From a virus: a stretch of 25,210 bases of DNA. The position numbers were made by a program, and so were the translations under genes. Below the pieces are notes generated by a model. It worked only from the letters and a program-made list of their open reading frames with translations, was not told the DNA's origin and did not search any database. Positions 10,010 through 21,967 of the stretch are shown here, in pieces (positions within the stretch are counted from its first letter, which is position 1; every line of letters begins with the position of its first letter). The stretch is taken from IMG/VR virus record IMGVR_UViG_3300028883_000132, positions 1 to 25,210 of that record. One strand, written 5' to 3'.

Positions 10010-11583
10010 CTGCCACGCCGAAACATCCCGAGGAGATTGCACGACACACCAAACTGCCGCCCGAAAAAATCTTTCTCCCCTTCCAGCTCGAAGTGATCGA
10101 GGACAGGCATGTCGCCGACCTCATCGAAAAGGGCAGGCAGGAGGGTATTTCGTGGGCCCTGGCGGAGAAAAGCCGCCAGATTTCCGGCATCGAGGGGCAG
10201 TGGGACACTTTCGTCGGCACGAAAACCAAGCTTCTTGCAAAGCAGTTCATCACCGACACTGCAGCATGGGCAAAGCTTTTCCGGCTCATCAAGAGCGTTC
10301 CCGATGCAGTCTACGAAGACGAGACCATCACCGAGAACCCGGAAACCGGCGAAACCGAAGCGGTCAGCACCTACCACATCCGGTTCCCGAACCGGCGCGA
10401 GGTGACGGCGCTTTCGAGCAACCCGGACGCCTGGCGCGGATGGCGCGGCTACAAAATCGCCGACGAGTTCGCGCTGCACAAGCAGCAGTCCGACGTACTC
10501 GACGCGCTCCTGCCGAGCCGCATGTGGCGGCAGCCGCTCACGATCTGCTCAACGCACAAGGGCAAAAACTCGGAGTTCAACAAGCTCATCGCCAAGTACA
10601 AAAAGGGCTTGCTGGGCGACGACTGGAACCTGCACACCATCCCGATCACGCGAGCGGTCGATGAAGGGATGCTTGAGAAGATTTACAAAAAGCCCTTCAC
10701 CGCAGAGATGCGCGCAGCATGGTTGCGCGCAAAAGAGCAGGAAGAGGGCATCCGGCGCTGGAATCAGGAGTACATGTGCATCCCGGAAGATGAGGAGGGC
10801 AGCTTTTTCACCTACGACCAGATCGTGCAGTGCGAGTACGACGATGCGCTCTGGTTCCCGCTCGATGGCGTCAAAAAGTTCAAGGGCAGCACCGAAGAGC
10901 AGGAGGCGCTTGCCTACTTCCGCAAAGTCGCCCGGCACGCCCGGCAGCACGCCGTCGGCGAGCTGTACATCGGAGAAGACATTGGCCGCGATGTCAACTA
11001 CACGGTTATCGCAATGATCGAGAACGTCGCCGGGATTCGCTTTGTTCGGGCAATTATCGCCCTCGACGACATGCGCTTCCAGATTCAGCAGGACTGCATC
11101 AGCGAGTGGATCACCCTGCCGAAACACCGCCGGACGTGCGTTGACAATCGCGGCATCGGTCGCGAGACCTCCGAGCGCTTGCAGGATCAGCATGGTACGT
11201 ACGCCGTCGAGCGCATCGACGCCACCGCAAAGCTCAAAGAGGTCATGGCTTACGCCGTGCTGCGGCTCATGCTCGACAAGATGCTTCGTTTCCCGCCAGA
11301 CGACACGCTCCGCGACGACTTCCACTCGATACGCAAGGAAAAGACATCCGCCGGGAACATCCGGTACGTCGCAGGTAAGAACGAGACCGATGAGAACAGC
11401 CACGGCGACTACTTTACCGCCATCGAGCTTGCCGTCCACGCCGCAGAAGGCGCAACGGGCAGCATGGACGACCTCATCGAACAGACCAAGCGCCCGCTCC
11501 CCGGATCACCGCTCGACTACCTCAGCGGCATCGGCGATATGGTGGGCGACGTCATCAACCTTTTTAGCCAGTCCAGAGCATGA
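10006..11583 (+). CDS. Terminase large subunit (Mu gp28-like)
   Basis: A 525-residue packaging ATPase/nuclease. The N-terminal ATPase has a variant Walker A (KGRQEGISW, about residues 42-50, in place of the usual RQIG-type loop of gp28) and a Walker B-type YKIADEFA (149-156). The C-terminal RNase H-like nuclease shows GEDIGRDVNYT (Asp325) and CVDNRGIGRETSERL (Asp380), plus a late acidic site in NSHGDYFTAIELAV. It pumps DNA into the prohead and makes the headful cut. It overlaps both neighbours by four bases (ATGA), forming a coupled terminase-portal cluster. Length is normal for the family. Confidence 0.94.
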   Translation: MTATPKHPEEIARHTKLPPEKIFLPFQLEVIEDRHVADLIEKGRQEGISWALAEKSRQISGIEGQWDTFVGTKTKLLAKQFITDTAAWAKLFRLIKSVPDAVYEDETITENPETGETEAVSTYHIRFPNRREVTALSSNPDAWRGWRGYKIADEFALHKQQSDVLDALLPSRMWRQPLTICSTHKGKNSEFNKLIAKYKKGLLGDDWNLHTIPITRAVDEGMLEKIYKKPFTAEMRAAWLRAKEQEEGIRRWNQEYMCIPEDEEGSFFTYDQIVQCEYDDALWFPLDGVKKFKGSTEEQEALAYFRKVARHARQHAVGELYIGEDIGRDVNYTVIAMIENVAGIRFVRAIIALDDMRFQIQQDCISEWITLPKHRRTCVDNRGIGRETSERLQDQHGTYAVERIDATAKLKEVMAYAVLRLMLDKMLRFPPDDTLRDDFHSIRKEKTSAGNIRYVAGKNETDENSHGDYFTAIELAVHAAEGATGSMDDLIEQTKRPLPGSPLDYLSGIGDMVGDVINLFSQSRA

Positions 11584-12896
11584 TAATTGATCCGAAAACC
11601 GGAAAGCCTTTTGCTACAACGCTCCCGACCAGCGAGGAGATCGCCACACGGCAGCTTGTCGAGGGCATGATGAACGCAACGGCGCAGCTCACCAACCCGT
11701 CGAAGACGCTGAGCACCATCGGTAAAATCATCACCGCCCTCGACCAGGTGCGCCGCCAGCCGGACGTGGCCGCCGCGTCGCTCAACTACCGGAGTGGAAT
11801 CTCGGCGCTGGAGCCCGACCTCAGCCAAAGCACAGAGCAGGGTGCTCGGGCCGATTTCCTGCAAGGCGTTCTCGACACGCTCGATCTCGGGCGCATCAGC
11901 GGCGGCATGGTCTCGGCGAGAGAGTACGGCTACGCCGTGCTGGAGGTGATCTGGGGCAAGGTCGATAACTGGCTCGTACCGATCCGGATCGAAGAAAAGC
12001 CGCGCGAGTGGTTCTTTTTTGACCAGGCGAACCGCCTCCGCCTCAAAAAGCAGGGCGTGCAGGAGGGCATCCTCTGCGGTGGCGACGACCCAGAAAGCGA
12101 GCACCCGCGCAAATTCCTGCTCATCCAGCACGAGGCGAGCTACCTAAACCCGTACGGAACCGGTTTGCTCGATACGCTCTACTGGTACGTCATGGGCCTG
12201 TACAGCAACTTCGAGTGGACGCTCCGGTTTGTGCAAAACTTCGGCCAGGACTTCGTAATCGCAAAAGTCCCCGGTAGCGCAAGCCAGAAATTCCAGGACG
12301 ACACACTTGCCGCTGCAAAAGTCTTACAGGCAAGGGCGATCGCGGTCTTCAAAGAAGGCACGCAGATCGAGATCATGGAAAACAAGGGCCGCAGCAGCTC
12401 CACCGACACCTACCTCGCTTTTGAAAAAATGGTCGTCGGCAAGATCAACAAGCTCTACCTCGGCACCGAACTGCTCGATAAAAACGACGCTTCGGGCGCG
12501 CGGGCCAGCTCCGAAACCGGCGCGGACATCCGCGACGACGCGCTCTCCGTCGGCAAAGCGCTGGTCGAGCACGGCTTCAACACGCTCATCCGCTGGATCG
12601 GCGAGGTCAACAGCTTACCCGGCAGCGACGACGAGCGCGTCCGTTTTGTGCTTAACCGCGCCGCCGAAACCAGCAAAGAACAGGCGGAGATCGACCAGAT
12701 TTACGCAACGGCGGGGAACTTTACCATTACCGAGCAGCTCCTTGCCAAGCGCAACTACGACCCCGGCGATTTTGAGCCAAAGGCCGCAGACGCCGCGACC
12801 AGCACAGGCACCGGCTTTGCCGCATCCACCTCCGGCTACGGCGAAGGGCTTGATGGCCTGCTCAACATCGCGGAGGCCGCAAAAAAAAAGCTCTGA
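11580..12896 (+). CDS. Portal protein (DUF935, Mu gp29-like)
   Basis: A 438-residue portal. Recognisable parts include the N-terminal TGKPFATTLPTSEEIATRQL, the central REYGYAVLEVIWGKVDNWLV, and the clip/stem region GTELLDKNDASGARASSETG. Twelve copies would form the ring through which DNA enters and leaves the head and to which terminase docks. Its 3' end carries an A9-G slippery run with a Shine-Dalgarno-like GGAGG upstream and a stem-loop downstream, and the next head gene lies in the -1 frame with no AUG. A minor portal-MuF fusion is therefore possible (see the frameshift element). Confidence 0.95.
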   Translation: MIIDPKTGKPFATTLPTSEEIATRQLVEGMMNATAQLTNPSKTLSTIGKIITALDQVRRQPDVAAASLNYRSGISALEPDLSQSTEQGARADFLQGVLDTLDLGRISGGMVSAREYGYAVLEVIWGKVDNWLVPIRIEEKPREWFFFDQANRLRLKKQGVQEGILCGGDDPESEHPRKFLLIQHEASYLNPYGTGLLDTLYWYVMGLYSNFEWTLRFVQNFGQDFVIAKVPGSASQKFQDDTLAAAKVLQARAIAVFKEGTQIEIMENKGRSSSTDTYLAFEKMVVGKINKLYLGTELLDKNDASGARASSETGADIRDDALSVGKALVEHGFNTLIRWIGEVNSLPGSDDERVRFVLNRAAETSKEQAEIDQIYATAGNFTITEQLLAKRNYDPGDFEPKAADAATSTGTGFAASTSGYGEGLDGLLNIAEAAKKKL

Positions 12897-12923
12897 CGGC
12901 GAGTGAGGCCAAGATCCTCGCCG
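12871..12923 (+). promoter_or_regulatory. Predicted -1 ribosomal frameshift element (dnaX-like)
   Basis: In order: GGAGG (12872-12876), a 7-base gap, the heptamer A-AAA-AAG (12884-12890) in the correct portal reading phase, a 6-base gap, then a 7-bp stem CGGCGAG/CTCGCCG (12897-12903 with 12917-12923). The portal stop TGA is at 12894. Slipping back one base places ribosomes in the frame of the MuF-like gene. The order and spacings resemble the known E. coli dnaX signal. A nine-A run could also give transcriptional slippage, or be a sequencing error. Confidence 0.62.
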
Positions 12924-13780
12924 CCGAGCCCGATTTCGATTTTATTGACTCCTGGAGTACGACCCTTGAACAGTCGCTGAACACGAGCTGGCGCGAAGGG
13001 TACGCCGACAAAGCCGCCGAGATGGAAGCCATCGAGCGCGAGGAGGCCGGGCAAGGCTTCGCCGCCGATCCGAAACTCAAGATTCCGACGAGCTGGGGCA
13101 ACGCCGATGCTGCGAAGTTCCACAAATTCAAGGGCTTCGTCTCTGCGCTCGTCACCGATCAGGAGCTTACCGACGAGCTATCAAAGAGCCTTGAGGACGC
13201 GCTGGCACAGGGCATCGGCTTCCAGAAGTGGGAAAAAACCATCGGCAAAACCTTCGACCGCCTCGGTTACACACGGCTTTCGAACTTCTCCGCGGAGACG
13301 ATCTTTCGCACCGAAACCTCGATGGCCTACGGCGCAGGCAGCTACGCCAAACAGGTCGAGATGGCCGACGCCTTCCCCTACTGGGAGTACAGCACGGCAG
13401 GCGACGAGCGGGTAAGGGATGACCACCGCGCGCTCGGAAAGCCGCCCGGTGGCGGGCATGGAAAAATCTTTGCCGCGACGGATCGGACTTTCTACCCTCC
13501 ACTTGGGTTCCGTTGCCGGTGCCGCGCGATTCCGGTCAGCAAGCGCCGCGCGAAGAAGTGGGGCATCACCAAACCCGACACCATAACGCCGGAGATGCGC
13601 GCCAACCTCGGCAACGCCGAGTTCGTAGGCGACAAAATCAAGAGCTTCGAGGACTACCTGGCCGAAAAGATGAAAACCCTGAGCGCCGCCCGCGCCGCCC
13701 TCATTACCGAAAAACTCGCCGAAATGATGGCGGCAAAAATTGCCAAGCTGGCGAGCAAAGCAAACCCGGATACGCCATGA
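12893..13780 (+). CDS. MuF-like head morphogenesis protein (no AUG start)
   Basis: The frame is open from 12854 and reads as family-like protein well before its first ATG (13022): AAEPDFDFIDSWSTTLEQSL, then the MuF hallmarks IFRTETSMAYGAGSY, YWEYSTAGDERVRDDHRALG and FYPPLGFRCRCRAIPVS. MuF-type proteins are minor head components bound to the portal. No ATG, GTG or TTG exists near the natural N-terminus. I give CTG at 12893, which overlaps the portal stop, as a nominal start, but -1 frameshifting from the portal gene is an equal or better explanation and would give a fusion of about 733 residues. An alternative is a start at 13022 with a lost N-terminus. Confidence 0.85.
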   Translation: MTASEAKILAAEPDFDFIDSWSTTLEQSLNTSWREGYADKAAEMEAIEREEAGQGFAADPKLKIPTSWGNADAAKFHKFKGFVSALVTDQELTDELSKSLEDALAQGIGFQKWEKTIGKTFDRLGYTRLSNFSAETIFRTETSMAYGAGSYAKQVEMADAFPYWEYSTAGDERVRDDHRALGKPPGGGHGKIFAATDRTFYPPLGFRCRCRAIPVSKRRAKKWGITKPDTITPEMRANLGNAEFVGDKIKSFEDYLAEKMKTLSAARAALITEKLAEMMAAKIAKLASKANPDTP

Positions 13781-15943: not shown

Positions 15944-15992
15944 AAAAATTTCCCCCCCCCATCAAAAAAAAACACTCTTTTTGTTTTGTTAT

Positions 15993-21892: not shown

Positions 21893-21913
21893 AACTATCT
21901 CCTTATTTTTTTT

Positions 21914-21967
21914 TGATGTTGATTAATGGCTGCCCGGTAGTTGCCGCTACCGGGCAGCTTTTTTTAT
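21914..21967. repeat. Hairpin repeat, copy 2 (perfect stem)
   Basis: A perfect 11-bp stem, CTGCCCGGTAG / CTACCGGGCAG, with the 6-nt loop TTGCCG and a T7 run on the plus strand. As a plus-strand terminator it would be strong, although every gene here is on the minus strand; it could stop antisense transcription or act as an RNA element in the early mRNA. Confidence 0.85.

Follow-up and report, generated by a model that had tools for sequence, protein, structure and literature searches.

A conserved run of nine adenines at the portal-MuF junction of Mu-like phages is probably a slippage site producing a portal-MuF fusion

How is a phage MuF protein made when its reading frame has no start codon of its own? 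The question is raised by a junction in the 25,210-nucleotide stretch of viral DNA analysed here and referred to as the window (IMG/VR record IMGVR_UViG_3300028883_000132, positions 1 to 25,210), where a portal gene is followed by a MuF frame in exactly the -1 register. Both proteins exceed the curated Pfam cut-offs, with 175 bits for the portal (PF06074) and 76 bits for MuF (PF04233), and the elements of the junction, all on the + strand, are the following:

11580-12896, +, portal gene of the Mu gp29 type, zero frame, product ending in ...EAAKKKL* (Pfam Portal_Mu PF06074, E=2.9e-51; PHROG 113 portal)
12854-13780, +, MuF frame (-1), which from 12890 on would supply the fusion with its C-terminal portion (Pfam Phage_Mu_F PF04233, E=5.5e-21)
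12872-12876, +, GGAGG, resembling a Shine-Dalgarno (SD) sequence, which may act as stimulator in the window's clade alone (its duplex with the anti-SD, at -9.5 kcal/mol, ranks within the top 3% of the gene)
12881-12889, +, nine-A run, the conserved putative slippage site (A9 in 26/28 rows of group 1 and 41/44 rows of group 2, both defined below)
12894-12896, +, portal stop TGA directly behind the slippage site, forming with the preceding base a CTG in the -1 frame
12897-12923, +, 7-bp stem-loop CGGCGAG/CTCGCCG, an accessory element of the window's clade and L155, as judged from folding, shuffles and relatives

The portal gene ends with GGAGG..CAAAAAAAAAG CTCTGA, the junction as a whole reading GCGGAGGCCGC AAAAAAAAA GCTCTGACGGCGAGTGAGGCC... 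and the last portal codons being GCA AAA AAA AAG CTC TGA. The nine-A run, followed by G12890, contains an in-phase A_AAA_AAA as well as, at 12884-12890, an in-phase A_AAA_AAG heptamer of the dnaX type, from which the stem (arms at 12897-12903 and 12917-12923) is separated by the 6 nt CTCTGA. Two further A9 runs, at 15964-15972 (+) and 21906-21914 (A run on the - strand), bring the count in the whole window to 3.

The open MuF frame spans 12854 to 13780 and contains no ATG, GTG or TTG before 13022, where its first ATG lies inside conserved MuF sequence. Ahead of this ATG the frame encodes the conserved motif KKKxLTxSE...DFIxxWST and, among the group-1 relatives, the substitutions from the run to +132 are distributed 88/66/168 over codon positions 1/2/3 of the MuF frame, a pattern indicating translation in the -1 frame upstream of the point where the window has its first ATG. 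A preliminary description of this DNA had reported GGAGG, A-AAA-AAG, a 6-base spacer and a 7-bp stem at the portal end, a MuF-like frame at exactly -1, open across the site with no start codon at hand, and family-like protein upstream of the first ATG; re-reading and comparison bear out each of these statements, and the fusion of near 733 residues that it predicted agrees with the computed length (434+3+296 = 733 aa, the portal alone being 438 aa).

Group 1 consists of 28 rows, comprising the window, viral contigs and prophages of Chlorobiaceae assemblies (L033-L037), with two members (L154 and L155) found by a search of the same order; portal identity goes down to about 40% and that of MuF to 32%, the most distant members (L058-L061) having MuF proteins 32-35% identical. 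Nine A's, the -1 relation and a junction devoid of starts recur as in the window both in L002-L005 (79% portal identity) and in L006/L007 (43%). Overall the run is A9 in 26 of the 28 rows and A10 in two (L155, L025), and MuF is at -1 relative to the portal in 27; in L042/L255 (one contig), L155 and L256 the run is shifted in phase or length. At L042:2499-2515 (= L255) it has moved one codon phase via compensating one-base indels. At this junction an ATG overlaps the portal stop and the A run is nonetheless kept, a possible step towards separate initiation of MuF, and the contig may use both routes, slippage and an ATG start. An AUG-started MuF gene devoid of the run, which would have spoken against the preliminary description, occurs in no group-1 relative, whereas the plain fused gene with A10 that it had likewise named is found in a single relative: L025:2474-5164 (= L057, one contig) carries A10 within one 896-aa ORF encoding portal, MuF and an ADP-ribosyltransferase (ART). 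In this ORF the gain or loss of one A would give a portal-length product, so that the polarity may be reversed.

The MuF proteins of some group-1 members carry C-terminal domains, ART in L059 and L025 and PBECR2 in L050 (L050/L019). A different C-terminal domain of ~170 aa with an NPE..I...SDLKTP-like motif follows MuF in L021, L023, L033, L035, L036 and L156; the four of these that were scanned (L021, L023, L035, L036) gave no Pfam match for it.

The arrangement extends well beyond these relatives. EBPR siphovirus 4 (JF412299), whose portal is 26.5% identical to that of the window, has nine A's at the portal end and MuF in the -1 frame, and its portal used as query yielded about 40 further contigs with the run; the isolated phages possessing it are RcWaterboi (A9), RR1-B (A9) and RcapMu (A8). 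These remote Mu-like phages constitute group 2, counted as 44 non-identical junctions (L255 and L256, present in the same table, being assigned to group 1), with A9 in 41, A8 in two and A10 in one, and with the -1 relation in 43. In L184, an A8 variant or candidate assembly error, the portal frame continues beyond the usual stop and MuF is at +1. The run occupies codon phase 1 in 31/44 junctions, phase 2 in 3/44 and phase 3 in 10/44, and in most of them the in-phase A_AAA_AAG is missing. In each of the 33 group-2 loci scanned (57-71% GC) the junction run is the sole run of A>=8, and the pattern A8R occurs in the 39-kb RcapMu genome only once, at the portal-MuF junction. The first start codon of MuF is found at a median distance of 110 nt past the run, behind conserved sequence of the RHVCFAE type; 82 Mu-like junctions lacking the run served for comparison, and in most of them the start is no more than about 15 nt from the portal stop. 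In the annotations of RcapMu and RR1-B, MuF is given a GTG or TTG start some 80-100 nt further down, and the RcapMu record remarks that for the portal a 'possible +1 frameshift would allow readthrough' and that the MuF start is without a good ribosome-binding site. Another 'potential -1 frameshift' is marked in the RcapMu record just upstream of the portal gene (NC_016165, position 18511, RcapMu35). Virion proteomics of the Roseobacter phages vB_ThpS-P1 and vB_PeaS-P1 (PMC5488378) has no bearing on the matter, ordinary overlapping portal and MuF genes being annotated there.

Taken together, the run is exactly nine A's long in 67 of the 72 junction rows, and all except L025 and L184 have the -1 relation; the recurrence of A9 at precisely this position in some 70 non-identical junctions excludes chance. 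In both groups the homopolymer is kept at the frame transition, the rows that are not A9 being A8 or A10, and what is kept across relatives is the length of the run, including the A's beyond A_AAA_AAG, rather than its codon phase.

These data give good support to the premise that portal and MuF are joined in a fusion protein through slippage at the A run, a conclusion that we regard as very probable and that is in keeping with the single-ORF portal-MuF of L025 and with the occurrence of fused portal-MuF genes in Microbacterium phages (PMC7302621). On this reading the portal gene would carry, at its 3' end, a programmed slippage site in the form of nine A's. The majority of the transcripts, having nine A's, would yield the 438-aa portal protein that ends at the adjacent TGA, whereas in a minority the RNA polymerase would add one A, causing the MuF frame to be read and the 733-aa portal-MuF fusion to be made; transcripts having lost one A or gained two would meet an early stop in the third frame. 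MuF, lacking a start, would be produced only or mainly as this fusion, and one or a few copies of it would be incorporated into each ring of 12 portal subunits. Where the SD-like element and the hairpin are present, in the window and its closest relatives, ribosomes may in addition slip by -1 at A_AAA_AAA/A_AAA_AAG. Considered as a whole, this account of the run, of the fusion and of the minority status of MuF, with RNA polymerase as the slipping machine, seems to us reasonably probable on sequence grounds; that slippage takes place, its ratio and its role in the virion are what we infer from the observed conservation, frames and missing starts. The junction ATG of L042/L255, which would permit separate initiation there, counts against MuF being made by fusion only.

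The main alternative concerns the machine that slips. The same fusion would result from a -1 ribosomal frameshift of the E. coli dnaX type, by slippage at A_AAA_AAG/A_AAA_AAA or by sliding on poly-A, with the upstream GGAGG and the hairpin as helpers in the window. The heptamer in phase, the SD and a hairpin spaced by 6 nt are indeed present in the window, L012 and L013, and these elements, needless for polymerase slippage and placed at dnaX-like spacing in the window, count against the polymerase, as do the mere A8 of RcapMu and the fact that any A9 includes an in-phase A_AAA_AAA usable by ribosomes; ribosomes of E. coli are able to slide along poly-A (PMC4363877). The window hairpin folds better than 199/200 dinucleotide shuffles, ranks in the top 0-2% of the windows of 30-45 nt within the same gene and exceeds codon-preserving shuffles (p=0.03). 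A strong hairpin directly after the portal stop is also found in L012, L013, L047, L042 and L155, the sequences of the last two differing from that of the window and not being alignable with its stem, whereas the other stems hardly vary; the hairpins of the window's clade and of L155 surpass codon-preserving shuffles with p between 0.002 and 0.03, which most other relatives do not, weaker hairpins with p<0.05 being present in L024 and L019/L020/L035.

On the other hand, a strong hairpin is missing from the majority of group 1 and from nearly all of the 33 group-2 loci scanned, and SD-like pairing within the top 5% of the gene is limited, among the 28 group-1 loci scanned, to the window, L012, L013 and L042, and is found in 0/33 loci of group 2; these scans led us to reject a conserved SD or hairpin as universal stimulator. 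Furthermore, the run is found in all three codon phases in group 2, so that conservation does not concern a heptamer in a fixed codon phase. In group 1, the codon preceding the three Lys codons ends in A (GCA, TTA, CTA) in 25/25 of the A9 rows in phase 3, even though this A is outside the A_AAA_AAG heptamer; in the portals having Leu at this place A-ending codons are mostly 2-11% of the Leu codons, and the chance product for the kept A is ~2e-17 over 14 lineages taken as independent, a figure made too extreme by shared ancestry.

The hosts point in the same direction. A tRNA-Lys(CUU) is encoded besides the UUU species in four Chlorobiaceae genomes (G001, G002, G004, G005), which may not include the window's host, so that AAG would not be read by tRNA-Lys(UUU) alone in any of the four; in G003 a pattern-based search found no CUU tRNA gene and ARAGORN did not confirm the UUU tRNA. 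For Thermus, which has tRNA-Lys(CUU), a review suggests that this tRNA may favour slippage by RNA polymerase, and nine A's are a proven slippage length at which the bacterial polymerase slips efficiently (PMC5009743). In addition, in 7/7 Chlorobiaceae genomes (L162-L168: G077, G005, G003, G004, G001, G080, G002) host dnaX comprises two ORFs with an A10 linking the first to the second in the -1 sense, a pattern which, as read from the sequences, extends the published prediction that two-ORF poly-A dnaX genes use transcriptional realignment (Antonov 2013, PMC3711429). The kept A, the phases of the run, the sparse SD and hairpin, tRNA-Lys(CUU), the A10 of host dnaX and the slippage length of A9 together favour transcriptional slippage, so that RNA polymerase appears the likelier agent shared by the two groups and the ribosome an unlikely main one, although in the window, which has the heptamer, the SD and the stem together, it may act too; in the window's clade ribosomal frameshifting would possibly be added to slippage of the polymerase. 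Thus, of the mechanism proposed in the preliminary description, the portal and minor portal-MuF fusion made at a slippery junction is strongly supported by conservation of the nine-A run upon alignment with related phages, and its attribution to SD-stimulated frameshifting of the dnaX type is supported only in part, SD and stem not being conserved and the heptamer being mostly absent in group 2.

A separate MuF protein, initiated at the CTG that shares bases with the portal stop (CTGA) or, by translational coupling, at a weak GTG, TTG or ATG downstream, is a very improbable alternative. A C precedes the portal stop in most of group 1, thereby creating the CTG, an ATG occupies that place in L042/L255, and the annotators' GTG/TTG starts mentioned above would fit a later initiation. 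However, the CTG is changed to CTA in L036 and L059, to GTA in L060 and to TTA in L061 and is absent in L058, so that CTG initiation, which the preliminary description had considered damaging to its own proposal, is not general and was rejected as a mechanism; moreover, conserved protein is encoded in the MuF frame upstream of the later starts, the RcapMu record itself denies MuF a good ribosome-binding site and A9 would be left unexplained. More improbable still is DNA-level phase variation by replication slippage or a homopolymer sequencing error splitting one fused gene, as suggested by the A10 fused ORF of L025 and by single A8 and A10 variants, since mixed lengths would be expected and not nine A's in nearly all rows, from many unrelated assemblies and isolates, a repetition for which sequencing error was rejected.

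In SPP1 virions the portal ring binds no more than one or two copies of the MuF protein gp7 (PMC5576092), and the literature searched gives no explanation of how a low number of MuF is fixed on a twelve-fold ring; a simple and testable answer would be that a minority of the subunits is fused, in a proportion set by the rate of slippage, and slippage of 15-30% (PMC4256274) would mean about 2-4 fused subunits per twelve. The nine-A slip would also account for the start-less MuF gene that puzzled earlier annotators, and the MuF starts in this large group, including those of RcapMu and RR1-B, are probably misannotated. Should the fusion be the sole product, the ART and PBECR2 toxins of some relatives would exist only as portal-MuF-toxin proteins. 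More tentatively, and with somewhat less confidence than doubt, it can be envisaged that polymerase slippage at A9 is a widespread, possibly convergent device by which Mu-like phages set the number of MuF-bearing, in some phages toxin-bearing, portal subunits to one or few per ring, to be ejected or exposed with the DNA. Slippage on poly-A, frameshifts in phages and fusions of portal and MuF genes have each been described before; the literature searched, the search being incomplete, contained neither their combination, in the form of an A9 conserved at the portal-MuF junction of two remote Mu-like groups, nor a virion gene that a phage expresses through slippage in transcription.

Among the known systems, the -1 ribosomal frameshift of E. 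coli dnaX uses A_AAA_AAG, an SD and a stem in a cell having a single tRNA-Lys; the window has all three, similarly spaced, but they are not conserved among its relatives. The phage frameshifts described as ribosomal, namely those of the tail chaperone (lambda G/GT) and of the major capsid protein (T3, A2, A118), likewise concern virion genes in which recoding sets the ratio of the products, yet none of them joins portal and MuF. Genes 36-37 of Rhodobacter phage RcapMu display the same arrangement, with A8 and a MuF lacking a good start, noted in the record as a puzzle with no mechanism or family pattern. In the Microbacterium phages EA/EB (PMC7302621) the portal and MuF functions are also found in one polypeptide, but this is encoded by a single gene, so that every portal subunit would carry MuF. 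In Citrobacter tssM1 and Shigella mxiE/spa, transcriptional slippage on poly-A just upstream of a stop yields a longer product, at 15-30% in most cases (PMC4256274); these, tssM1 with A11, are secretion-system genes and not phage genes. The two-ORF dnaX genes of Chlorobi share both the polarity, a -1 extension through an A run, and the hosts, although they encode the host replicase, have A10 and owe their mechanism to prediction (PMC3711429). Finally, Thermus thermophilus dnaX, subject to transcriptional slippage at nine A's (PMC5009743, PMC1088944), resembles the present junction in its A9 coding run, in two products with a common N terminus, in a host tRNA-Lys for AAG and in the stops close by in the other frames; there, however, a replicase is concerned and the long product is the templated one, whereas here, in a phage head gene, the short portal is templated and slippage would be needed for the long product.
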